The position numbers were made by a program, and so were the translations under genes. Below the pieces are notes generated by a model. The model saw only the letters and a program-made list of their open reading frames with translations, did no database searches and was not told the origin of the DNA. A DNA stretch of 28,954 nucleotides from a virus. The stretch is taken from the IMG/VR virus record IMGVR_UViG_3300020202_000190, positions 1-28,954 of that record; one strand, given 5' to 3'. Within the stretch, counting starts at the first letter, position 1. The number at the start of each line of letters is the position of its first letter. Shown here piece after piece: positions 2,250 to 28,411 of this stretch.

Positions 2250-2547
2250 GCGCGTAGCCAAAGCCGTTGCAAGCCACAAGATCGTTTCGCATGACCTGCG
2301 CGCGGCAGGGTGGCTGGTTGTCGACCGGCTCGACGCGATAATGTCCGCGCACGACACGCTTCAGCAGGCAAGGGCCGCCTGCGATCTGTTGAATGCGAAG
2401 GCTGCTCTCCGCGCCCTCCTCCCTCCCTCCGAAGCCATGGTGGAGGCGGGATATGCGGCAGTGCTTCGATCCGACGGGGCGCTGAGCGATGCGATGCTTG
2501 AAGGCTGGGCCGCCATGCTAGGCGCCATTCTCAAGGAGGGCGAATGA
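2236..2547 (+). CDS. hypothetical Ala-rich helical protein (103 aa)
   Basis: It starts at ATG 2236, preceded by AGGAG at 2226-2230. It is an Ala/Leu-rich, all-helical protein. The second half (PPSEAMVEAGYAAVL, then LSDAMLEGWAAML) resembles the C-terminal helices of many uncharacterised small phage proteins. It has no catalytic motif. It ends with AAGGAGG, which doubles as the ribosome-binding site of the NusG-like gene, overlapped by ATGA. Confidence 0.6.
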   Translation: MTDLERVAKAVASHKIVSHDLRAAGWLVVDRLDAIMSAHDTLQQARAACDLLNAKAALRALLPPSEAMVEAGYAAVLRSDGALSDAMLEGWAAMLGAILKEGE

Positions 2548-3071
2548 CTTGGTACGTAGCAAAAGCGCACCGTCCGCACCCCGCCGGCCTGGACGCCGCA
2601 TGGGCAGAAATCAAGGCCCACGGCATCGAATGTCACGTGCCCTGGATGGAGCCCATTGTCCCGAAGCCACGGCTGGGCCAGAAGCAGCGTGACCCCATCC
2701 GCCGCGCCGCCTTCGGCCGCTACATCTTCGTCAGCCTCACCCCAGAATCCGACATGGGTTGGTTCTCGCGTCCCGAGCACCTTGGCGGCCCCAGGACCAT
2801 CGACGGCCTTGTCACCATGGCCGGCTCACCCACTCCGGTCAGAGGCCCATTCGTTGACGACCTGATCGCCCACGGCCCCATGCAGGCCATCGTGATGCAG
2901 CTCGCCACCATCGCCCCAGGAACCATGCTCCGGGTCAAGTACGGCCCCTACGAGGGCAACACCGGCATCTTCGACCGCTACGACAACGGCGGGCGCGTCA
3001 GCCTACTAATGGACTTGCTTGGAGACCGCAGGCGCATTAGTATGGCCCGTGAGCAGGTTGAGGCTGCATGA
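2544..3071 (+). CDS. NusG-like NGN-KOW transcription factor
   Basis: The 175-residue length is close to bacterial NusG (about 180). Seen: residues 2-5 TWYV, the usual opening of the NGN domain; GRYIFVSL at 58-65, the NGN core strand; and a KOW domain at about 125-172 with PGTMLRVKYGPYEGNTG, then RVSLLMDLLG and a terminal REQVE. NusG-family proteins bind the RNA polymerase clamp and beta' coiled coil; paralogues such as RfaH make polymerase processive on specific operons. It starts at ATG 2544 in an ATGA overlap, with AAGGAGG upstream. It is the last sizeable gene before the packaging genes, so a late-operon antiterminator role is a reasonable inference. A host-directed NusG competitor is the alternative. 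Confidence 0.82.
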   Translation: MTWYVAKAHRPHPAGLDAAWAEIKAHGIECHVPWMEPIVPKPRLGQKQRDPIRRAAFGRYIFVSLTPESDMGWFSRPEHLGGPRTIDGLVTMAGSPTPVRGPFVDDLIAHGPMQAIVMQLATIAPGTMLRVKYGPYEGNTGIFDRYDNGGRVSLLMDLLGDRRRISMAREQVEAA

Positions 3072-3175
3072 TGTGCGGCTGCGCAAGCGTTGGCTACACC
3101 TGCAATCACCGCACAGGGCGCAAGCATAGCGCCCACCAGAGGCGCCGGGCGGCACGAGCCGTAGCCGGTGCGTAA
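3068..3175 (+). CDS. 35-residue Cys/Arg-rich ORF
   Basis: The ORF begins at ATG 3068 inside the ATGA overlap with the NusG-like stop; a second ATG follows immediately. It encodes Cys3, Cys5 and Cys12 followed by His, then a run of Arg, Lys, His and Ala. The N-terminus could bind a metal and the tail could bind nucleic acid, but it is too short to assign. Support is the stop-start overlap typical of this operon; there is no separate evidence of expression. Confidence 0.4.
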   Translation: MMCGCASVGYTCNHRTGRKHSAHQRRRAARAVAGA

Positions 3176-3304
3176 GCAATCCAGGGCCAATGAGGAACGC
3201 CGCTCGATCAGCCCCTTGTCCGGGTGGCCTGCTCGCCCTCGGGCGAACGGGCCGGCGTGACGTGCGGGAGAGACCGCAGAGAAATCCAAACTAGAGGCAA
3301 GTAG
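3176..3304 (+). promoter_or_regulatory. non-coding leader before terminase genes
   Basis: This 129-base gap is the longest untranslated stretch in the first 7.5 kb of this operon. It contains a small hairpin at 3233-3246 (TCGCC / GGCGA, loop CTCG) with no following T-run, so it is not an intrinsic terminator. I see no clear sigma70 promoter. Its place between the NusG-like gene and terminase makes it a candidate site for late transcription control or antiterminator loading. That is inference from position only. Confidence 0.3.
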
Positions 3305-3550
3305 ATGGCGAAGGGCCGCAAGACCGGCGGTCGCGCTAAGGGCACGCCGAACCGCACCACCGCGCAGCTGAAGGACATGATCCTGACCGCGCTCGACCAA
3401 GCCGGCGGCATCAAGTACCTGCAGCGCCAAGCAACTAAGAGCCCGACCGCGTTCCTTGCCCTGGTGGGCAAAGTGCTGCCGATGACGGTGGCGGGGGACA
3501 AGGACAACCCGATCACCGTGGTCGTCAAGAAATTCCAGTTTGACGATTGA
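3305..3550 (+). CDS. terminase small subunit-like protein
   Basis: It starts at ATG 3305, preceded by AGAGG. It is 81 residues: a basic GRKTGGRAKGTPNRTT N-terminus (4-19), then helices. This Gly/Lys/Arg-rich opening is typical of short DNA-binding phage proteins encoded immediately before the large terminase, and the gene overlaps that subunit by 11 bases. The small subunit recognises packaging-site DNA and regulates the motor. It is shorter than many small terminases, so it may be a minimal form or a homologue whose exact role differs. Confidence 0.7.
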   Translation: MAKGRKTGGRAKGTPNRTTAQLKDMILTALDQAGGIKYLQRQATKSPTAFLALVGKVLPMTVAGDKDNPITVVVKKFQFDD

Positions 3551-4931
3551 GCTTCCGTACCTCTGGACGCCACGCAAGTACCAACGGCCGCTTTGGCGCT
3601 ACCTTCAGAATGGAGGCACGCGCGGTGTGGCGGTGTGGCATCGCCGAGCGGGCAAGGATGACCTCTGCCTGCACTGGACGGCGACGGCCGCGCACGAAAA
3701 GATCGGCTCCTACTGGCACATGCTGCCGCAGGCCAATCAGGCCCGCAAAGCCATCTGGGATGCGATCAACCCGAAGACCGGCAAGCGGCGCATAGACGAG
3801 GCATTCCCGGCCGAGATTCGCGAGAGCACGCGCGAATCAGACATGTTCATTCGCTTCAAGTGCGGGTCAACGTGGCAGGTCGTCGGGTCGGATAATTTCG
3901 ACAGCCTGATCGGCACGCCGCCTATAGGCCTGGTGTTCTCTGAGTACAGCGTCAGCAACCCGCTTGCGTGGGCATATCTCATGCCCATCCTGGAGGAAAA
4001 CGGCGGGTGGGCGCTGTTCATCTATACGGCGCGGGGCAGGAACCACGGGCATGCGCTTTATGAACTCGCTCGGGAATCGCCGGACTGGTATTGCGAAGTC
4101 CTGACGCCCGAGAACACCGGGGTATTCCAAGCGCCACAGCTGGAGCGCATCGAGAACGAGCTGAAGGGCGCCTTCGGCGTGGACGCAGGCGAAGCGCTGT
4201 TCCTGCAAGAGTACTGGTGCAGCTTCGACGCGGCGATCATCGGCGCCTATTGGGGGCGCGAGATGCTGGACGCCGAGCGCTCGGGCCGCATAACCGACGT
4301 GCCGGTCATTCCCGGCCTCAAGGTGCACACCGCCTGGGACATCGGCACTCGCGATGCTACCAGCATATGGTTCTTCCAGGTCCTCCACGGCGGTTTGCAC
4401 ATCATCGACTACTACGAGCGCACCGGGCAGGGTGTGCCTCATTTCGCCGAGGAGTTGAGGCGGCGCGGCTACGACTACGGCAGCCATTATGTGCCGCACG
4501 ACGCCCGGGTGCTTGAGTGGGGCTCCGGCAGGACGCGTATCGAGGCCATGCTGGCCGAGAACCTGGTCCCGAGCATTGTTGCCAACCACCAGCGCCCCGA
4601 CGGCATCGACGCGGCGCGGCAGACCATCCCGTTGTGCAAGTTCGACGCCAAGCGCTGCAAGTTCGGCATCGAGGCGCTGAAGCAGTACCGGGCGGAGTAC
4701 GACGAGGAGCGGAAGATCCTGAGCAAGGAGCCGCTGCACGACTGGACCAGCCACGCGGCGGACGCCTTCCGCTACCTGAGCATGGCCTGGCGGGCGATGA
4801 AGCCGGAACCACCCCCGCCGCCCAAGCCGGTCTTTGAGTACGCGATGACGGATGACGGCTCGATCCGCTCGGGCCTGACCATGAAGCAGATCATCGAGCG
4901 CCAGACCCGGCGCATGAACGCAGAGGATTGA
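3540..4931 (+). CDS. terminase large subunit
   Basis: This is the ATP-driven DNA packaging motor with a headful-type nuclease, acting at the portal vertex. It has 463 residues. Walker A is HRRAGKD at 34-40; the Walker B region is GLVFSEYS, with Glu135 as the likely catalytic residue. The C-terminal RNase H-like nuclease has acidic positions Asp267 (WDIGTRDAT), Asp321 (PHDAR) and Asp408 (DAFRY). The start is TTG 3540 overlapping the small-subunit gene; it gives the usual short lead (LPYLWTPRKYQ) to Walker A. The C-terminus (about 425-463) has a poly-Pro stretch, probably a flexible portal-binding tail. Confidence 0.95.
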   Translation: MTIELPYLWTPRKYQRPLWRYLQNGGTRGVAVWHRRAGKDDLCLHWTATAAHEKIGSYWHMLPQANQARKAIWDAINPKTGKRRIDEAFPAEIRESTRESDMFIRFKCGSTWQVVGSDNFDSLIGTPPIGLVFSEYSVSNPLAWAYLMPILEENGGWALFIYTARGRNHGHALYELARESPDWYCEVLTPENTGVFQAPQLERIENELKGAFGVDAGEALFLQEYWCSFDAAIIGAYWGREMLDAERSGRITDVPVIPGLKVHTAWDIGTRDATSIWFFQVLHGGLHIIDYYERTGQGVPHFAEELRRRGYDYGSHYVPHDARVLEWGSGRTRIEAMLAENLVPSIVANHQRPDGIDAARQTIPLCKFDAKRCKFGIEALKQYRAEYDEERKILSKEPLHDWTSHAADAFRYLSMAWRAMKPEPPPPPKPVFEYAMTDDGSIRSGLTMKQIIERQTRRMNAED

Positions 4932-5243: not shown

Positions 5244-7514
5244 GTGGCTGACGAGTCCGCCGCATCGCTCGAATCCCCGAAGGACGCCAAGGGAGAGCCC
5301 GGCCGCGTCCGCATGTGGATCAATGCGGTCGAGCTGCAGGAGAAGCACGAGGAGAAGTGGCGCGAGGCGGCCGAGAAGGTCGTCAAGCGCTACCGCATGG
5401 AGGAGGAAGCCCAGAAGCGCGCCAAGGGCTTCCCGATCCTCTACGCCAACACCGAAACCCTGCTGCCGGCGGTCTACAACAGCCAGCCGGTTCCCGATGT
5501 GCGCCGCCGGTTCGGCGATGCGGACGAGAACGCGAAGATGGCAGCGCAGTCGCTGGAGCGCGCCATCTCGGTCTCTTGCGACGAGTACGACTTCCACCAG
5601 GTCATGTGCGACGCGGTGAAGGACATGGGCCTGCCCGGGCGTGGCGTGACCCGGGTGCGCTACGAGCCGCTGATGAACGGCGATCAGATCGCCTACCAGA
5701 AGGTGACCGGCGAGCATGTGAACTGGCCGGACATCACCTTCGGCCCGGCGCGGCGCTGGAACAAGGTGCCGTGGGTCAAGTTCAACCATCTGCTGACCCG
5801 GGAGCAGCTGAGGAAGCTCAACCCGAGCGTCGGCGAGATGGTGCCGCTCACGCACACCTGCGACGGTCACGAGGAGCAGAAGGGCACCGACAAGCCGCTA
5901 CCCGACATCTTCAAGCGCGCTCTTGTGTGGGAGATCTGGGACAAGGACAGCGGCAAGGTGATGTGGCTCGCGCCGCACTACAAGAAGGGCTTCGTCCGGG
6001 AAGATAAAGATCCGTTGCGGCTGGAAGGCTTCTATCCGATCCCGCGCCCGCTCTATGCGATCTGGACTACCGACAGCCTGGTCCCCATCGAGCCGTTCCG
6101 CATCTACGCAGACCAGGCGGACGAATTGGACCTTGTGACGCGCCGCATCATGGCGCTGATCAAGGTCTGCCGGGCAAGGGGTATCTACGACGCATCGCTT
6201 GAGGGTGCATTCGCGGCGCTCAAGGACTCGGATGACGGCGTGTACGTGCCGACGAGCGCCGCCGAGGCGAAGGCGTTCACCATGGAAAACGGCCTAGACA
6301 AGGCTGTGTGGTCTTGGCCGCTGGAAACCATCGTTGCGACGCTGAAGCAGCTCTACGAGAACCGCGAGCAGATCAAGGCGGTCATCTTCGAATTGACCGG
6401 CATTGCCGACATCATGCGCGGCCAGACGGAAGCGCAGGAGACCAAGGGCGCACAGCAGCTCAAGACGCAGTGGGGCACGCTCCGCATCGCGCCGTTGCAG
6501 CAAGAGGTGCAGCGCTACGCCCGCGACCTGATCCGGCTGAAGGCGGAGATCATCGCCGAGCACTTCCGGCCCGAGGTCTTGACGCTGATGACCGGGGTAC
6601 AGATCACGCCCGAGGTGCATCAGCTGATGAAGACCGATGCGCTCCGGGCGTACCGGATCGACATCGAGACGGACAGCACGATCAGGGCGGACGTTGCAAG
6701 GGCGCAGGAGCAGATCGGGCAGTTCGTGCAAGGGACGGGCGCGTATTTCACCGCGATTGGCCCGGCGGTGACCGAAGGCGCGATGCCCAAGGACGTGGCG
6801 ATTGACCTGTATGCCTCGTTCGCGCGGCAGTTCAAGCTCGGGAAGCAGGCGGAGGACGCCTTGGACCGCTGGTCCGAGATGGCCAAGCAGGAGGCGCAGA
6901 ACCCTCAGCCGCAGGTCGATCCCGAGCAACAGAAGATGCAGATGCAGATGCAAATGGAGCAGCAGAAGCTCCAGGCGCAGATGCAGGCCGAGGAGGCGAA
7001 ACTCGGTCTGGAGCAGCAACGCATGCAGGCCGAATTGGAGTTCGAGCGCCAGAAGATGGCGATGGAGGCCGAGCGCGCGCAGCAGCAGATCCAATTGGAC
7101 GCGCAGAAGCACGAATCCGACATGCAGATGAGGGGTCGGGAGCTTCAGCTGAAGGAACGCGAGGGCCAGATGAACGCCCAGTTGGAGGCGGCCAGGATCG
7201 CGGATGGTCAACAGGCGAGGCAGGAAGATCGCCAGCAGAAGGACGCGGTTGCGGCCGGCCTACCCGAGGGCCAGAAAGCCATGGACTTCATGGGCGAGAC
7301 CGGCAGCGCGCTAAGGGTCGCCACAGAGCAGCTGAACACCCTCGCCCAAGCCCTGTCCAAGGCGAACGAGATGATCGCGGATCTGAAAGCACAGGCGGAC
7401 GCGCCGGCCGAAGTGGTGCGGGATGCCAATGGCCGTGTTGCCGGGGTAAAGCGCGGCAACGTGGTGAAGATGGCCCAGCGCGGCGCCGATGGGCGGGTGT
7501 CAGGGGTGGCCTAA
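5244..7514 (+). CDS. portal protein
   Basis: The dodecameric portal forms the packaging channel at one head vertex. It has 756 residues with GTG start 5244, three bases after the previous stop. Support: position directly after terminase, large size, an early block with GFPILYANTETLLPAVYNSQP and RRFGD typical of podovirus portals, and helical wing/stem sequence in the middle. From about 545 to 680 it carries a long Gln/Met/Glu/Lys-rich coiled coil, like the barrel extension of P22-type portals. The last 70 residues are a separate tail with VVRDANGRVAGVKRG. The stop overlaps an opposite-strand gene by four bases. Confidence 0.92.
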   Translation: MADESAASLESPKDAKGEPGRVRMWINAVELQEKHEEKWREAAEKVVKRYRMEEEAQKRAKGFPILYANTETLLPAVYNSQPVPDVRRRFGDADENAKMAAQSLERAISVSCDEYDFHQVMCDAVKDMGLPGRGVTRVRYEPLMNGDQIAYQKVTGEHVNWPDITFGPARRWNKVPWVKFNHLLTREQLRKLNPSVGEMVPLTHTCDGHEEQKGTDKPLPDIFKRALVWEIWDKDSGKVMWLAPHYKKGFVREDKDPLRLEGFYPIPRPLYAIWTTDSLVPIEPFRIYADQADELDLVTRRIMALIKVCRARGIYDASLEGAFAALKDSDDGVYVPTSAAEAKAFTMENGLDKAVWSWPLETIVATLKQLYENREQIKAVIFELTGIADIMRGQTEAQETKGAQQLKTQWGTLRIAPLQQEVQRYARDLIRLKAEIIAEHFRPEVLTLMTGVQITPEVHQLMKTDALRAYRIDIETDSTIRADVARAQEQIGQFVQGTGAYFTAIGPAVTEGAMPKDVAIDLYASFARQFKLGKQAEDALDRWSEMAKQEAQNPQPQVDPEQQKMQMQMQMEQQKLQAQMQAEEAKLGLEQQRMQAELEFERQKMAMEAERAQQQIQLDAQKHESDMQMRGRELQLKEREGQMNAQLEAARIADGQQARQEDRQQKDAVAAGLPEGQKAMDFMGETGSALRVATEQLNTLAQALSKANEMIADLKAQADAPAEVVRDANGRVAGVKRGNVVKMAQRGADGRVSGVA

Positions 7515-7764: not shown

Positions 7765-9525
7765 GTGTCAACCAGCTTCCCGGCCGGCCTCGATAGCCTC
7801 ACCAACCCGTCCAGCAGCGACAACCTGAGCACATCGGTTGGCGGGGCGACGCATTCTGCCCAGCATGCGAACCTGAATGACGCGGTTGAGGCGATTGAGG
7901 CGAAGGTCGGCATTGACGGCAGCGCGGTCACCAGTTCGCACGACTACAAGCTGAGCGGCGTTACGGGGGCGGACAAGGCGGTCACCACGGCGCGCACGGT
8001 GAGCGCCGGGACTGGGCTTACGGGCGGAGGGGATCTCTCGGCCAACCGAACGTTGTCGATCGATGCCGGCGGCGTCGGCGCAACCCAGCTCGCGAGCAAT
8101 GCGGTTGAGACTGCGAAGATCCTCAACAACAACGTGACGCTGGCCAAGATCGTCGCCGCGACCGCCGCATCGCGGTTGCTTGGCCGGCGCTCGGGGTCAG
8201 CCGGGAATTTCGAGGAAATCACCCTCGGCACCGGCCTGTCGATGTCCGCCGCGGGGGAGCTGTCGGCAACAGGCGGGGCCGGTGGCGGCACGATCACCCT
8301 CGCAGAGAAATCGGCCGACTACACCATAACGGACGCCGACGATCAGAAGCTGATCGCGCTGACCGGTTCGACCGGCCGCACCTTCACGTTGCCGGATAGC
8401 GCAACCTGCGGCGCCGGCTGGTTCACCTACATCGCGTGCTTCCTTACGGGCACGACAGTTGCCAACCAGACCCTGACCCTGGTGCGCGCCGGCAGCGACA
8501 CGATCAACGGCGGGACGAACGACTACCTGTACCCCGGTCACATCTATCTGCTGCTCACCGACGGCGCTGGCGTTTTCAAGACCTACATGGTGTCGCCCGG
8601 CGCGGTGATTGTGAGCGCGACCGGGGCCAACACCGTCAACCTGCCGACCTGTACCTGGTCGGTCTGCTACTACGATCTCCTCGGCGCCGGCGGTTCGGGG
8701 GCCTCCGGCGCCCGCAAGGCCAGCACCAACAGCACGCGGAACGGCGGTGGCGGTGGCGGTGGGGGGTCTCGCGTGCGCGGACGCCTGCCCAAGGCAATCC
8801 TGACCGCAGCCGGCAGCAGTGTCACGGTCACCATTGGTACAGGAGGCGCACAGCCGGCGGCAGCGGGCAGCGACAACTCCAACGGCGTCGCCGGCAACGC
8901 GGGTGGCAACACGACGTTCGGCGCTCTGGATACCGCCTATGGCGGCGGCGGTGGCGGCATCAACTCCAGCAACGGGACCTCTGGCGGCAGCGGTGCCGGT
9001 ACTCTGGCGGCGGGCAGTGTTGGTGGCGGTAGCGCCGTCTCTGGCGGATCACCGTCGAACTTGACCAACTCGCCAGGCCATTTCGGCGGCGGTGGCACGT
9101 CACAGACTGCTGCTGGACAGCCAGCCGGCGATGGTGGCGGCGGCGGCGGTTCATCCAACGTCACGGCAGCCGGCACGGCTGGCGGCAGCTCCACCAGCGG
9201 TGGCCCGGGCGGCGGCGGGGGCGGGGGGCTCACCAGTGCTGACGCCACGCTGAACGGTGGCGCTGGCGGGTCGCAGGCCGGCCTCAACGGCGGCGGCGGT
9301 GCCGGCGCAACAACCGATGGCGGTGCGGGCACCGCCGGAACCAGCCCGGACTTCGGCCCTGGCACCGGCGGTGGCGGCGGCAAGTCTGCGACGGGTGGCG
9401 GCGGCGATGGTGGCGCTGGTGGGACTGGCGCAGGCGGTGGCGGCGGGGGTGCTTCGCAGAACGGTGCCGCGAGCGGCCGAGGCGGGGCGGGCGGCAACGG
9501 TCAGGCATTGGTGCTGTTCCAATGA
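7765..9525 (+). CDS. glycine-rich tail fibre / adhesin
   Basis: The start is GTG 7765, with AAGAGG at 7755-7760; 586 residues. Residues 2-60 (FPAGLDSLTNPSSSDNL, then HSAQHANLNDAVEAIEAKVG) match a particle-anchoring opening shared by many phage fibres. Residues 75-175 contain collagen-like fibre repeats (GLTGGGDLSANRTLSIDAGG). From about 327 to the end it is dominated by Gly runs separated by Ser, Thr, Asn and Ala, ending GNGQALVLFQ. That arrangement fits a polyglycine-II helical sandwich as in S16 gp38-type adhesins, the host-contacting tip. It is unusual in lying between portal and scaffold genes. Confidence 0.85.
   Translation: MSTSFPAGLDSLTNPSSSDNLSTSVGGATHSAQHANLNDAVEAIEAKVGIDGSAVTSSHDYKLSGVTGADKAVTTARTVSAGTGLTGGGDLSANRTLSIDAGGVGATQLASNAVETAKILNNNVTLAKIVAATAASRLLGRRSGSAGNFEEITLGTGLSMSAAGELSATGGAGGGTITLAEKSADYTITDADDQKLIALTGSTGRTFTLPDSATCGAGWFTYIACFLTGTTVANQTLTLVRAGSDTINGGTNDYLYPGHIYLLLTDGAGVFKTYMVSPGAVIVSATGANTVNLPTCTWSVCYYDLLGAGGSGASGARKASTNSTRNGGGGGGGGSRVRGRLPKAILTAAGSSVTVTIGTGGAQPAAAGSDNSNGVAGNAGGNTTFGALDTAYGGGGGGINSSNGTSGGSGAGTLAAGSVGGGSAVSGGSPSNLTNSPGHFGGGGTSQTAAGQPAGDGGGGGGSSNVTAAGTAGGSSTSGGPGGGGGGGLTSADATLNGGAGGSQAGLNGGGGAGATTDGGAGTAGTSPDFGPGTGGGGGKSATGGGGDGGAGGTGAGGGGGGASQNGAASGRGGAGGNGQALVLFQ
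8740..9500 (+). repeat. low-complexity GGC/GGT glycine-codon tract
   Basis: Imperfect runs of glycine codons (GGC, GGT, GGG), four to nine at a time, are separated by short Ser/Thr/Asn/Ala segments. This is the coding sequence of the fibre tip. The degenerate repeats could allow recombination and length change. Confidence 0.85.
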
Positions 9526-11767: not shown

Positions 11768-12727
11768 ATGCCATCCCCCAACAGCACCTTCACGGAGCTG
11801 GTCACCACCACGCTTCGTGAGCACCCGGGCGTCATCACCGACAACGTGTCGGACCACAACGCTCTGTATCGCCGCCTGAAGACCAACAAGAAGATCAAGG
11901 TCATCGACGGCGGCACGACCATCGTTCGGCCGCTCGACTACGCCGAGAACGCGACGTTCCAGCGCTTCAGCATGTACGACACGCTGAACGTCGGCGCATC
12001 GGATGTGCTCTCGGCTGCCGAGTTCTCGTGGGTCAACAGCGCGATCCACATCACGGCGGCCGGCGAGGAGCTGCGCAAGAACGCGGGTTCAAACCAGATC
12101 CTGGATTTGGCGAAGGCCCGCACGCGCAACGCCATCCGCACCGCGGCGAACAACATGTCGGTGGACATGTATTCGTCCGGCTCGCTGAGCAACCAGATGG
12201 GCGGTCTCGGCCACCTGGTCTCGACCGATGGCACCGGCACCGTGGGCGGCATCGTCGCCGGAACCTACACGTTCTGGAAAAACCAGTTCTACGAGTGCCC
12301 GACCGCGCCGTCCAAGACGACGATGAAGCAGCACATGCAGACCATCTGGTTGACGCTCGTTCGCGGTGCGGACAAGCCCGACCTGATCGTCAGCTCGCAT
12401 GACTTCTTCGGCTTCTACTGGGACGGCCTGACCGATCTCCAGCGTTACGCCGAGAGCACGGAAGCCACGCTCGGTTTCCAGTCGCTGAAGTTCGTCACCG
12501 CCGACGTGATCTTCGACAGCAACAGCAACTTCGCCACCACGGCGGAGAAGATGTACTTCCTGAACACGGAATATATCGAGCTGGTCGAGCATCGCGCCGC
12601 GCGTTGGTCGCAGCTGGACGACAAGATGTCGGTCAACCAGGACGCGGTGGTCATTCCGCTGATCTGGATGGGCCAGATGGTCACGTCGAACCGCTCGTTG
12701 CAGGGCGTCCTCATCGACGCGAGCTGA
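11768..12727 (+). CDS. major capsid protein
   Basis: The start is ATG 11768, with AAGGG upstream; 319 residues. Position after scaffold and a typical opening (TFTELVTTTLREHPGVITDNVSDHNAL) identify it as the head shell protein, probably of HK97 fold. A mid-protein segment WVNSAIHITAAGEELRKNAG and a C-terminal NQDAVVIPLIWMGQMVTSNRS, with the final LQGVLIDA, fit phage capsids of this type. No N-terminal protease or delta domain is visible, in line with a separate scaffold. Confidence 0.88.
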   Translation: MPSPNSTFTELVTTTLREHPGVITDNVSDHNALYRRLKTNKKIKVIDGGTTIVRPLDYAENATFQRFSMYDTLNVGASDVLSAAEFSWVNSAIHITAAGEELRKNAGSNQILDLAKARTRNAIRTAANNMSVDMYSSGSLSNQMGGLGHLVSTDGTGTVGGIVAGTYTFWKNQFYECPTAPSKTTMKQHMQTIWLTLVRGADKPDLIVSSHDFFGFYWDGLTDLQRYAESTEATLGFQSLKFVTADVIFDSNSNFATTAEKMYFLNTEYIELVEHRAARWSQLDDKMSVNQDAVVIPLIWMGQMVTSNRSLQGVLIDAS

Positions 12728-13267: not shown

Positions 13268-13971
13268 TCTTCACACCCGACATGTTGCGTAACGTGCGCT
13301 CGGCGCTCTCGCGGGGTCTCCCGACCTTGCAGGGGTGTCGGGCGCACGAGCATGTCCTGTCAGTGGCGGCCGGCGGGCCGTCGCTGGCGGACACCTATCA
13401 GCGCCTCACCGGGCAGATCGCGGCGGTCAACGGCTCCTGCGGCTGGCTGATCAATCGCGGGGTGATACCCGATCTCTGCGCCGTCATGGACCCCGGCGAG
13501 CACATGGCCGGCGTCATCGCGGCGGATCGGCGCGTGCGGTATTTCATAGCGTCCTCCTGCGACCCCTCGGTTTTCGACAAGCTGAAAGACTGCGACGTGA
13601 CGCTGTGGCATCCAACGGGGTTCCCCGGCGTCAGGCAAGCCCTGCCGGCCGACACGCTGATGGTCGGCGGCGGCTGCACCATGGGGCTGCGCTGGCTCAG
13701 CTTGGGCTACACGCTTGGGTTCCGGCGCTTTGACCTGCATGGGATGGACAGCAGCTTCCGTGGCGAAGCGACGCACGCCTACAAGGACCGCGAGCGAGAC
13801 GGACCGATCATCACCATCCACGGACGGCAAACCCGTCTGAACTACTTCGAGCAGGTGACCGATTTCTTCGACTGGCTTGGCCGGATGAAGCAGCCGGACA
13901 TGGAACCGACCGAAATCAACGTCTTCGGTGACGGTCTGTTGCAGGACGAATGGAAGCGCCGGGCGGCATGA
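13264..13971 (+). CDS. DUF115 / MptE-like glycosylation protein
   Basis: The start is GTG 13264, overlapping the previous stop; 235 residues. The core shows AAGGPSLAD (35-43), then NGSCGWLINRGVIPDLCAVMDP, an Asp-containing loop. A later GGGCTMGLRWLSLGYTLGFRRFDLHGMDSSF follows, with the conserved GxDSS end. This is the fold of the DUF115 family (6-hydroxymethylpterin diphosphokinase MptE-like). Members act in flagellin glycosylation (Maf proteins) and also occur in phage genomes next to glycosyltransferases. A nucleotide-sugar-linked role is inferred; the substrate is unknown. Confidence 0.72.
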   Translation: MIFTPDMLRNVRSALSRGLPTLQGCRAHEHVLSVAAGGPSLADTYQRLTGQIAAVNGSCGWLINRGVIPDLCAVMDPGEHMAGVIAADRRVRYFIASSCDPSVFDKLKDCDVTLWHPTGFPGVRQALPADTLMVGGGCTMGLRWLSLGYTLGFRRFDLHGMDSSFRGEATHAYKDRERDGPIITIHGRQTRLNYFEQVTDFFDWLGRMKQPDMEPTEINVFGDGLLQDEWKRRAA

Positions 13972-14636
13972 TCTCCGTTGTCATGCCGTACTGGGAACGC
14001 AGTTTCGCTCTTGCGGGCGCGCTGGCGCTGTTCGCGCTGCACTATGCCGAGGCGAAGATCGAGGTTGTGGTTGTTGACGATGGCAGCGAGGACAAGCCGG
14101 TTCTCGACACCTACCCGTTTCCGGTTCGCGTCCTCACGCTGCCGCGCAAGCCCGCTCCAATGAACCCCTGCGTACCGATCAACCGCGGCGTGGAAGCGGC
14201 GCGGGGTGACGTGATTGTGATCACCAACCCGGAAATCCTGCACAAGGAGCCGGCGCTGCCTCGAATGCTCGATGAGCTGGAGGCGCTGGGCGCAAACGGC
14301 TATGTCCTGGCCGCCGCCTGGTGTCCGGAGCAGGGCCAGTGGCATTGCCATTCCTCGCGCAAGCATGCCGAGAAAGTGCCGCAAGGTGCCGGCTATCACT
14401 TCTGCGCCATGCTCAACCGCTCCCTGTGGGATGCGGCTGGCGGTTTCGATGAAGGCTATCGGCAGGGCGCGGGCTACGACGATCCGGACTGGACCTGGCG
14501 GCTGCACCGGGCCGGCGCGAAGTTCAAGATCTGCGACGACATCGTTGTGATCCACCCAAAGAGCGGCGCTCGGACCGAATGGCCGATGGGCGGGTTCGAG
14601 CGCAACCGTCTGCTGTTCGAGAGCAAGTGGCACTGA
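13968..14636 (+). CDS. family 2 glycosyltransferase
   Basis: The start is ATG 13968 in an ATGA overlap with the DUF115-like gene; an in-frame ATG at 13950 would lengthen it by six residues, but the GT-A opening ISVVMPYWERS then begins late. The 222 residues show VEVVVVDDGSE-type sequence at about 32-41 (Asp37, Asp38), VIVITNPEIL at about 83, and the acceptor-side AGYDDPDWTWRLHRAG. This is the inverting GT2 (GT-A) fold that moves sugar from a nucleotide donor. There are no membrane helices, so it is a soluble enzyme. The acceptor could be virion protein or DNA. Confidence 0.85.
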   Translation: MISVVMPYWERSFALAGALALFALHYAEAKIEVVVVDDGSEDKPVLDTYPFPVRVLTLPRKPAPMNPCVPINRGVEAARGDVIVITNPEILHKEPALPRMLDELEALGANGYVLAAAWCPEQGQWHCHSSRKHAEKVPQGAGYHFCAMLNRSLWDAAGGFDEGYRQGAGYDDPDWTWRLHRAGAKFKICDDIVVIHPKSGARTEWPMGGFERNRLLFESKWH

Positions 14637-15223
14637 TCGTCGCCTGCCTGAATCATGGAAACTACCTCGGCCGCGGTGACGAATACGTCTACCGCCTCCG
14701 CGCTGGGGTAGAGCGGAACCTGAAAGCGTCACACACCTTCCGCGTATTCACCGAAGCCGACATCCCCGAGGGCGTGACCGGCTGGTGGGGGAAAATCGCG
14801 CTGTTCCGCGATGGAATGTTGCCCGCTGGCGAACGGGTCATGTTCTTCGATCTCGACACCATCATCCCCGGCTCGCTTGACGATCTGGCCGCCTATCGAG
14901 GCCCGCTGGCGATGCTGAGCGACTTCTACCACCCCTGGCAGCAGGCAAGCGGCGTGCTGCTGTGGGAGGCCGGGAAGTACCACCACATCTGGGCCGAGTG
15001 GGAATCGGCTGGCCGCCCAGAGATGCGTCAAGGGGATCAAACGTGGATCAGGTTCATGGAGCCCAAGGCGCCCATGCTCCAGACGCTGTTCCCCGGCCAG
15101 ATCGTCGGGCTGAAAACCCAATGCCGCGGCCATCTGCCCGAAGGGGCGCGGGTGTGCTGCTACCACGGTCAACCGAAGCCCCACGAGAACAACTGGCTTC
15201 CCTACCTAGAGGTGAAAACGTGA
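14627..15223 (+). CDS. GT8-like glycosyltransferase with DxD motif
   Basis: The start is GTG 14627, overlapping the GT2 gene by ten bases; 198 residues. It opens ALIVACLNHGNYLG, followed by RVMFFDLDTII with the metal-binding Asp75-x-Asp77. C-terminal regions include QASGVLLWEAG, GDQTWI and CCYHGQPKPHE, which fit the GT-A scaffold of glycogenin-like (GT8) enzymes. It is the third member of a coupled cassette with DUF115 and GT2. A sugar added to sugar or protein is inferred; donor and acceptor are unknown. Confidence 0.75.
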   Translation: MALIVACLNHGNYLGRGDEYVYRLRAGVERNLKASHTFRVFTEADIPEGVTGWWGKIALFRDGMLPAGERVMFFDLDTIIPGSLDDLAAYRGPLAMLSDFYHPWQQASGVLLWEAGKYHHIWAEWESAGRPEMRQGDQTWIRFMEPKAPMLQTLFPGQIVGLKTQCRGHLPEGARVCCYHGQPKPHENNWLPYLEVKT

Positions 15224-25432: not shown

Positions 25433-25457
25433 GCTCTCGGGGAACCGGGAGCCTTTT
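25433..25457 (+). terminator. rho-independent terminator of the late operon
   Basis: An eight-base-pair stem, GCTCTCGG (25433-25440) paired with CCGGGAGC (25445-25452), with one T-G wobble and a GGAA tetraloop, is followed by CTTTT. It lies seven bases after the last plus-strand lysis ORF and before the convergent minus-strand genes. The minus-strand side has no T-run, so it appears to act on plus-strand transcripts. Confidence 0.8.
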
Positions 25458-27336: not shown

Positions 27337-27383
27337 GGGGTGTCTTGGTGGCGCGCAGTAGCGCGCTGGAGTTCGTGGCTCAT
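27333..27383 (-). CDS. 16-residue micro-ORF after radical SAM gene
   Basis: The minus-strand ATG at 27383 overlaps the radical SAM stop (ATGA) and has GGAGAGG a few bases upstream. It encodes MSHELQRATARHQDTP and ends in an ATGA overlap with the next micro-ORF. The strong ribosome-binding site favours translation; the peptide has no recognisable function. Confidence 0.35.
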   Translation of the reverse strand: MSHELQRATARHQDTP

Positions 27384-28411
27384 GCGGCCTCTCCGAACAG
27401 ATTTCCCTGCGCATGCGCGCCGCGGCCCTTAGCGTTCACGTCGTAGTGTTCGAAGGCGATGAAGTTGTACGCCTTGCGGATCACCCAGCGCTGGAACTCG
27501 CGGAGTGTGCGGCGCTCAATGGGCGCGTTGTGTCCGCCAAGCGGCAGCCCCCGCTCGCGGGTGGGATCAAACACCATCGGATAGGGCCGGATGCCTCGCT
27601 CGACCATGCGGTTGAACCGGCGGAACACGCGAGCCCAAGTCTCGCGAGGATCGTATCCTACCAGCATGTACGCCATCAGCCGCGAGGGCGCGATCCCCGC
27701 CTCTTCAAGCATGTCCACGCCGCGAAAGAAAACTTCCTCATCACGCAGATTGTCCCAAGCGGTGTAGAGCCGCCGCGTGGTGAATTGGTCATCGCAGTAA
27801 TGAATAGACGCGAGCGCTCGCGCGGCGTCTGGATCGATCAGCCGCACGTTGATGCCTTGGTTGAGGCAGACCTTGAACCCGCCATCCCGAATTTCACCGA
27901 TGCGCGCTTCCCATTGGTCACGTGGCTGACCGAAGAAATCATTGTCGAGCAAATGCAGGTGTCTCGGGTGGCCTTCGCCGCGCCAAATGTCGGCAACGGT
28001 GTTTACCGACCGTGGCTTGCCTTCCTTCTTTGGCACGACGCAGAAGCCGCACTTAAGGCGACATCCGCGCTGCGTGAAGCCGATGGAACCCGTGAACGCC
28101 GGATAGATCGAATAGTCAGGCTTCAGCCCCTCAGCCCCGGTCAGCCCCTCAACGGTGGTAGCGTCATCGCTCCAAGTCCCGCCAACGATGGCGCCGGGAA
28201 AGTTTGCGCGCAGCCGAGCCACGCGGTCAGCGCTGAATGCAAAGATGGCCGAGCCGTAGACGCGCTCATACTGAGGCTCCAGCATGTCGCGCTCGACAGA
28301 CTTTGAAAACACGATTTCATCGCCACACTCACGATGAAACGCAGCCAACGACATCAGCGCAAGATTGGGCAGCTTGCCGTCGATCTGGGTGATGCGGATG
28401 TTCACCCTCAT
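27380..28411 (-). CDS. radical SAM enzyme
   Basis: The start is ATG 28411 (minus) in an ATGA overlap; 343 residues. RGCRLKCGFCVVPKKEG holds the Cys117-x3-Cys121-x2-Cys124 cluster that binds the [4Fe-4S] centre cleaving S-adenosylmethionine. The preceding 100 residues (SLAAFHRECGDEIVFSK, then GTWSDDATTVEGL) look like the Rossmann-type N-terminal domain of cobalamin-dependent/MiaB-like family members. A (beta/alpha) barrel with HLHLLDNDFFG and MAYMLVGYDPRE follows. The substrate is unknown; nucleic-acid base modification is one possibility for a phage enzyme. Confidence 0.85.
   Translation of the reverse strand: MRVNIRITQIDGKLPNLALMSLAAFHRECGDEIVFSKSVERDMLEPQYERVYGSAIFAFSADRVARLRANFPGAIVGGTWSDDATTVEGLTGAEGLKPDYSIYPAFTGSIGFTQRGCRLKCGFCVVPKKEGKPRSVNTVADIWRGEGHPRHLHLLDNDFFGQPRDQWEARIGEIRDGGFKVCLNQGINVRLIDPDAARALASIHYCDDQFTTRRLYTAWDNLRDEEVFFRGVDMLEEAGIAPSRLMAYMLVGYDPRETWARVFRRFNRMVERGIRPYPMVFDPTRERGLPLGGHNAPIERRTLREFQRWVIRKAYNFIAFEHYDVNAKGRGAHAQGNLFGEAA

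Follow-up and report, generated by a model that had tools for sequence, protein, structure and literature searches.

Genomic surroundings of the nusG gene

The window, that is, the whole stretch of DNA analysed here, is a viral record of 28,954 bases. Upstream of nusG, at 557-2547 on the plus strand, lie short early ORFs that are tightly packed, several of them with start/stop overlaps. Scans of the early ORFs 1764-1994, 1991-2227, and 2236-2547 against Pfam and PHROG gave no significant match. The early ORFs run in the same direction into nusG (2544-3071, plus strand), which overlaps the preceding ORF 2236-2547, starts with ATG, and encodes a NusG/RfaH-family protein of 175 aa with an NGN domain (residues 1-110, approximately) and a KOW domain (about 122-175). 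A putative ORF of 35 codons with several cysteines (3068-3175, plus strand) overlaps the nusG stop (ATGA) and has no Pfam match. As stated in the preliminary description, no sizeable early gene follows nusG before the gap of 129 nt at 3176-3304 (plus strand), and the coordinates of the gap are correct. The gap leads from the nusG side to the packaging genes and is a candidate recruitment region.

The gene starting at 3305 encodes a small protein in the position of the terminase small subunit (3305-3550, plus strand; phrog_11043), and a homologue with 51% identity lies directly before TerL in Bradyrhizobium phage ppBjS10J-1. The terminase large subunit (3540-4931, plus strand) has homologues in phages of Acetobacter, Bradyrhizobium, and Rhizobium (50-52% identity), of which that from Rhizobium is annotated as terminase large subunit. 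The portal protein follows at 5244-7514 on the plus strand (phrog_12082, 4e-156). The probable major capsid protein (11768-12727, plus strand) is assigned by its place in the block; in four viral contigs, proteins 67-71% identical to it occur, there too with a portal upstream. Packaging, capsid, and tail genes are all on the plus strand up to 25331 and form a block of roughly 22 kb. The large ORF at 7765-9525, with a long glycine-rich C-terminal half, is tail-fibre-like by appearance. Within the structural block, a family-2 glycosyltransferase-like gene (13950-14636; Pfam 1e-9) has a neighbouring ORF at 14579-15223, and the two genes possibly modify the virion or the host surface.

The late block had been described as having a single visible terminator, at its end. 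The strongest intrinsic-terminator-like site of the plus strand (25433-25452, with 8 pairs and a T-rich tail) does follow the block, but three weaker sites lie inside it, at 14821, 22646, and 25193. The totals of terminator-like sites in the window are under the shuffle expectation. Beyond the late block, an integrase is found on the opposite strand (Pfam), and beside it a protein of 343 aa (27380-28411, minus strand) with a sub-threshold radical-SAM match (E = 0.007).

Domains and family membership of the window protein

The 175-residue ORF contains the NGN and KOW segments noted earlier: TWYV is N-terminal, GRYIFVSL occupies residues 58-65, and PGTMLRVKYGPYEG...REQVE is in the C-terminal domain. 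Against PDB sequences, phmmer gave a match to RfaH over residues 22-165 (E = 7e-5) and to NusG over residues 3-174 (E = 5e-3). In the PHROG scan, residues 21-174 match phrog_6386, “transcription antiterminator” (1.2e-7). The Pfam NusG family matches at E = 0.0035 only, which is under the Pfam cut-off. With a profile of 18 phage NusG proteins, from which the window protein was left out, the latter was recovered among 9600 ORFs at E = 5e-5. The sequence evidence for kinship with NusG is thus moderate but real, and it goes beyond chance.

The AlphaFold2 model, built on 19 aligned sequences (mean pLDDT 78, pTM 0.56), has an NGN domain and a KOW domain predicted as a beta-barrel. The earlier description as NusG-like is borne out at the level of the predicted fold, the best 25 PDB matches being all NusG, RfaH, or Spt5 (top E = 2e-8). 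The whole-chain TM-scores are only 0.3-0.5, probably as a result of the loose placing of the two domains in the model. Taken alone, the KOW domain of the model gives a TM-score of 0.79 of the target with E. coli NusG. Residues 123-174 align to the NusG KOW, and the predicted barrel matches KOW structures. The KOW domain is modelled as a beta-barrel only, in one state, and the model is silent on an RfaH-type fold switch.

In a residue comparison with RfaH, the aromatics that bind RNA polymerase (W4, Y5, F51, Y54, and F56) are retained in the window protein. The HTT residues 65-67 are replaced by W, F, and S, K10 by H, and R73 by G. Effects of substitutions at all of these RfaH positions (W4, Y5, F51, Y54, F56, H65, T66, T67, K10, and R73) have been reported, and H65, T66, and T67 are required for the anti-pausing activity of RfaH (PMC2871177). 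On sequence and model together, the window protein is a very diverged member of the NusG/Spt5 superfamily, with both NGN and KOW. It is not an orthologue of RfaH, and only by inference does it work like Q.

The leader of the window

In the window leader, neither the signal of the rhizobial-type clade described below nor the pause motif GGN6TGYG is found. The ops element GGCGGTAGNNTG is absent from the leader, and there is no GGN7GYG in the ops register within 3068-3304. In the gap 3176-3304, no intrinsic terminator was found and no sigma-70-type promoter was seen. A GC-rich hairpin, GGCCTGCTCGCCCTCGGGCGAACGGGCC, is present at 3226-3253 (plus strand), with no T-run after it, and is not among the terminator-like sites. 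The fold of the leader is not more stable than that of shuffled sequences (z = -0.73), and Rfam gave no match. Since the clade signal, GGN6TGYG, and an intrinsic terminator are all missing from the leader, no cis target for the window protein is visible there.

Two segments of the window, 3220-3231 (CCGGGTGGCCTG) and 3143-3153 (CGCCGGGCGGC), were considered as counterparts of the clade signal and rejected: matches equally good occur elsewhere in this GC-rich genome, and neither segment fits the pause consensus. The 17-mer that starts at CCGGGTGGCCTG is present in only three viral contigs, none of them with a NusG. No close homologue with whose leader that of the window could be compared was found in the collections searched. 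If the protein acts in the leader, it would have a signal of its own, not recognisable without relatives.

NusG proteins in the same slot of other phages

No close relative of the window NusG was found in viral contigs, GTDB contigs, or phage records, and a search with a mixed alignment gave nothing beyond three distant loci. Phages with the window type of terminase were therefore read for context. NusG paralogs occupy the same slot in five isolated phages (of Bradyrhizobium, Labrenzia, Rhizobium, Sinorhizobium, and Nostoc) and in about 20 viral contigs. In Bradyrhizobium phage ppBjS10J-1, the TerL of which is 51% identical to that of the window, a NusG-family protein (Pfam 3e-12) is at the same place. 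In Labrenzia vB_LagS-V1, NusG comes after the early genes, with an HNH gene and then the terminase behind it, an arrangement that spans the start of the circular record. In Rhizobium PPF1 (where the stretch from nusG to terminase spans the record ends), Sinorhizobium phi3LM21, and Nostoc Nsp-JY10, the terminase genes are preceded by nusG as the final early gene of notable size, or almost the final one. The viral contigs L052-L055 have NusG in the same slot before terminase genes.

In the tree, the window protein, the Bradyrhizobium clade, and the Labrenzia protein are on the RfaH side, and the proteins of PPF1, phi3LM21, and the Nostoc phage are with housekeeping NusG (branch 100/99). The window protein lies outside housekeeping NusG, across that branch, on a long branch that leaves its exact place uncertain. 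Because the slot proteins fall on two sides of the NusG/RfaH split, the slot before the terminase has probably been filled by NusG at least twice. Most phages with a window-type terminase or capsid carry no recognisable NusG, so that the function would be dispensable there or filled by other proteins.

Chromosomal NusG paralogs with 25-32% identity to the window protein occur in 14 of 398 sampled genomes of Pseudomonadota, one per genome (L096-L107), and the two that were checked match Pfam NusG strongly. For 12 of these 14 loci the surroundings were fetched, and no protein similar to the terminase/portal set was found nearby. A survey of one bacterial order with phrog_6386 returned mainly host NusG and was set aside.

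Leader signal of the Bradyrhizobium clade

In the Bradyrhizobium (rhizobial-type) clade, the gap between nusG and the terminase genes contains a near-invariant signal of 20 nt. The five leaders compared first share a block of about 60 nt that consists of GCAAATCAG, then CGGCCGGT, then TTTCACCCGCCGGGNGGCTTGTGTC. A pattern scan of the viral collection found CACCCGCCGGGNGGCTTGTG in 23 viral contigs. A nusG ORF ends 47-315 nt upstream of CACCCGCCGGGNGGCTTGTG in 19 of the 20 contigs with at least 400 nt upstream; the other three, with 302 nt or less, were left out of the count. The exception among the 20 is L068, which lacks nusG. About 0.8 kb before its block (L068:1464-1483) there is a portal-like fragment, possibly in a rearranged prophage. 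In the reverse test, in which contigs or phages were retrieved by their NusG protein only, six of seven have the block, and the one lacking it, L058, is the most diverged of the seven. Block contigs are L048, L052-L055, L059, and L061-L083, and the block lacks annotation in the isolate record. A conserved ORF of about 60 codons, with no Pfam match, is present between nusG and the block (L048:2984-3172, with equivalents in L052-L055). The 35-codon ORF of the window occupies the same place and is apparently unrelated to it.

Across the block loci, identity between the NusG proteins goes down to 40% (median 53%), and the TerL proteins encoded after the block belong to at least four families that show no mutual similarity in BLAST. 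For these two reasons, the block accompanies nusG, not the terminase. Judged from these comparisons, it is probably not a packaging site.

Of the 23 sequences, 22 conform at GGGNGGCTTGTG to the pause consensus GGN6TGYG. Positions G-10, Y-1, and G+1 are established pause positions of RNA polymerase (PMC4457086). RfaH is recruited at a pause on E. coli ops (PMC11001881), and ops fits the same register as GGN6TGYG, a register derived in this analysis. Within 150 nt downstream of the signal, an intrinsic-terminator-like hairpin occurs at 11 of 22 loci; in control windows drawn from the same contigs, the figure is 34 of 1198 (2.8%). A stem CGGCCGGU/ACCCGCCG, closing a loop of 5 to 32 nt, is predicted in the RNA of the clade leader; its pairs are nearly invariant and give no covariation support. 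By analogy, the block could be read as non-template DNA, as by RfaH, or as RNA, as by LoaP. The succession of signal, terminator, and late genes is the leader anatomy expected of a processive antiterminator.

A proposed late-gene antiterminator

We consider it likely that the window gene is a specialised NusG paralog of the phage and serves as a Q-like processive antiterminator of the late genes, loaded in the leader. NusG would be the final protein expressed from the early operon. While host RNA polymerase transcribes the leader that separates nusG from the terminase genes (3072-3304), it would be bound by the NGN domain of NusG, and the protein would then stay on the polymerase. Transcription of the block of roughly 22 kb with the packaging, capsid, tail, and lysis genes would continue in spite of pauses, intrinsic terminators, or Rho. 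The proposal is based on the NusG membership and fold of the protein, its retained polymerase-binding aromatics, its position, the recurrence of the arrangement in unrelated phages, and a pause-like clade signal tied to nusG and often followed by a terminator. From these we infer an antiterminating action of the window protein, its loading in the leader, and the phage's own late operon as its target.

A self-encoded late antiterminator had already been suggested in the preliminary description. Comparison with other phages speaks for it (the same slot, and in one clade a pause-like signal and terminators), but the leader of the window itself offers neither that signal nor an intrinsic terminator. 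The loss of the HTT residues and of K10 and R73 of RfaH, and the rarity of a recognisable NusG among phages with the same terminase or capsid, also speak against it. The Q-like position between early and late genes is present in the window, and an intrinsic terminator in the leader, found at 11 of 22 loci in the related clade, is absent. The window nusG adjoins a long operon with a leader, and the gene-linked leader signal is seen in the rhizobial-type clade, not in the window.

With this state of the window leader, and with K10 and R73 of the RfaH type missing from the protein, one can think of a general elongation or anti-Rho factor that binds RNA polymerase on every phage transcript, or on every transcript altogether, in competition with host NusG and without any leader-specific loading; the foreign DNA would then be shielded from NusG-assisted termination by Rho. 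Foreign genes are indeed silenced by Rho, and phages evolve means to evade it (PMC7819879). We find this reading unlikely, since a leader signal is tied to nusG in the better-sampled clade, and the constant position of the gene, immediately ahead of the packaging genes in phages that are not related, points to a cis target at that site.

A more limited objection bears on the comparative evidence and not on the window gene: the block of the relatives might be another phage signal (cos/pac, a promoter, or an attachment site) and not a loading site for NusG. Packaging sites are often near terminase-small-subunit genes, and the block, with its three conserved pieces, is longer than ops needs. Against this, at least four TerL families share the block, nusG adjoins it in 19 of the 20 contigs, the block matches the pause consensus, and terminators are often behind it; we judge such a signal to be improbable.

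It is still less probable that nusG is a captured host gene, a passenger without phage function that came to its position by an accident of recombination. The rarity of NusG among relatives with the same terminase would agree with this, but the slot recurs in phages whose terminases are unrelated and whose NusG proteins come from the two sides of the family tree, and in one clade the leader and terminator context is conserved.

A decoy that sequesters RNA polymerase, as in the preliminary description, or a takeover factor that displaces host NusG, either of them shutting down host transcription, would agree with NGN contacts to the polymerase that are likely kept, and a phage could profit from displacing NusG; but the complete KOW domain, the recurrent position at the early/late boundary in an operon leader (typical of specialised NusG), and the lack of any sign of a truncated or NGN-only form make it the reading that we trust least.

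Specialised NusG paralogs and phage genes named NusG are already known, and a role in phage late genes with a linked leader signal would be a variant of these. With the late-gene antiterminator as the preferred reading, a wider statement can be made tentatively: NusG proteins may have been given control of phage late genes on separate occasions, from the RfaH side and from the housekeeping side, each with its own pause-type leader signal for loading. Such a late switch would be widespread and would stand alongside lambda Q, phage sigma factors, and phage polymerases, and the window would represent a very diverged lineage with its own signal. If true, the late-gene switch would become understood and testable in many alphaproteobacterial and other phages, the genes of which are now annotated “NusG” or “hypothetical” at best, and NusG-based antitermination with a short, portable leader signal would be added. 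It would give a natural comparison for the recruitment of RfaH, LoaP, and lambda Q and, possibly, a tool for the expression of long operons in rhizobia. That a single leader signal accompanies a single NusG clade, even where the terminases are unrelated, lends itself to a direct reporter test.

Comparison with known systems

LoaP, TaA, and UpxY are known NusG paralogs, each dedicated to a single operon that adjoins its own gene (PMC7819879), and RfaH-like genes on prophages have been mentioned (PMC7593976). In full-text searches of open-licence papers, we found nothing relevant on phage NusG and late-gene antitermination, which does not prove absence from the literature. Like RfaH, ActX, LoaP, UpxY, and TaA, the window protein is an NGN-KOW protein, and it is on the RfaH side of the split between RfaH and housekeeping NusG (100/99). 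As with LoaP, TaA, and UpxY, one long operon with a leader adjoins the gene (PMC7819879). Unlike the genes of these specialised paralogs, the window gene is phage-borne and precedes packaging and structural genes, not capsule, antibiotic, or pilus operons. It differs from RfaH in the protein, without HTT, K10, and R73, and in the leader, without ops. The chromosomal paralogs are separated from it by their identity of only 25-32%.

Phage NusG-family proteins already annotated as NusG or antiterminator are those of phrog_6386 and of PPF1, phi3LM21, Nsp-JY10, Synechococcus S-CRM01, and Bacillus phage G. The first three of these phages differ from the window in having proteins on the housekeeping-NusG side of the tree; Synechococcus S-CRM01 and Bacillus phage G are large phages, known here by annotation.

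LoaP acts with the dfn leader hairpin, an RNA signal in the leader, and overcomes a downstream intrinsic terminator (PMC12691694). The rhizobial phages resemble this system in having a NusG paralog and leaders with a possible RNA stem and a terminator. On the other hand, LoaP binds a UNCG RNA hairpin, and the phage block is a different sequence.

With lambda Q and other phage late antiterminators, the window shares a last early gene, a leader, and a single late block, and the proposed action is also the same: a polymerase modified in the leader would read through into the late genes. In contrast to Q, no late promoter with a promoter-proximal pause was found in the window, and the window protein is not of the Q family but of the NusG family, its matches being all to NusG or RfaH.
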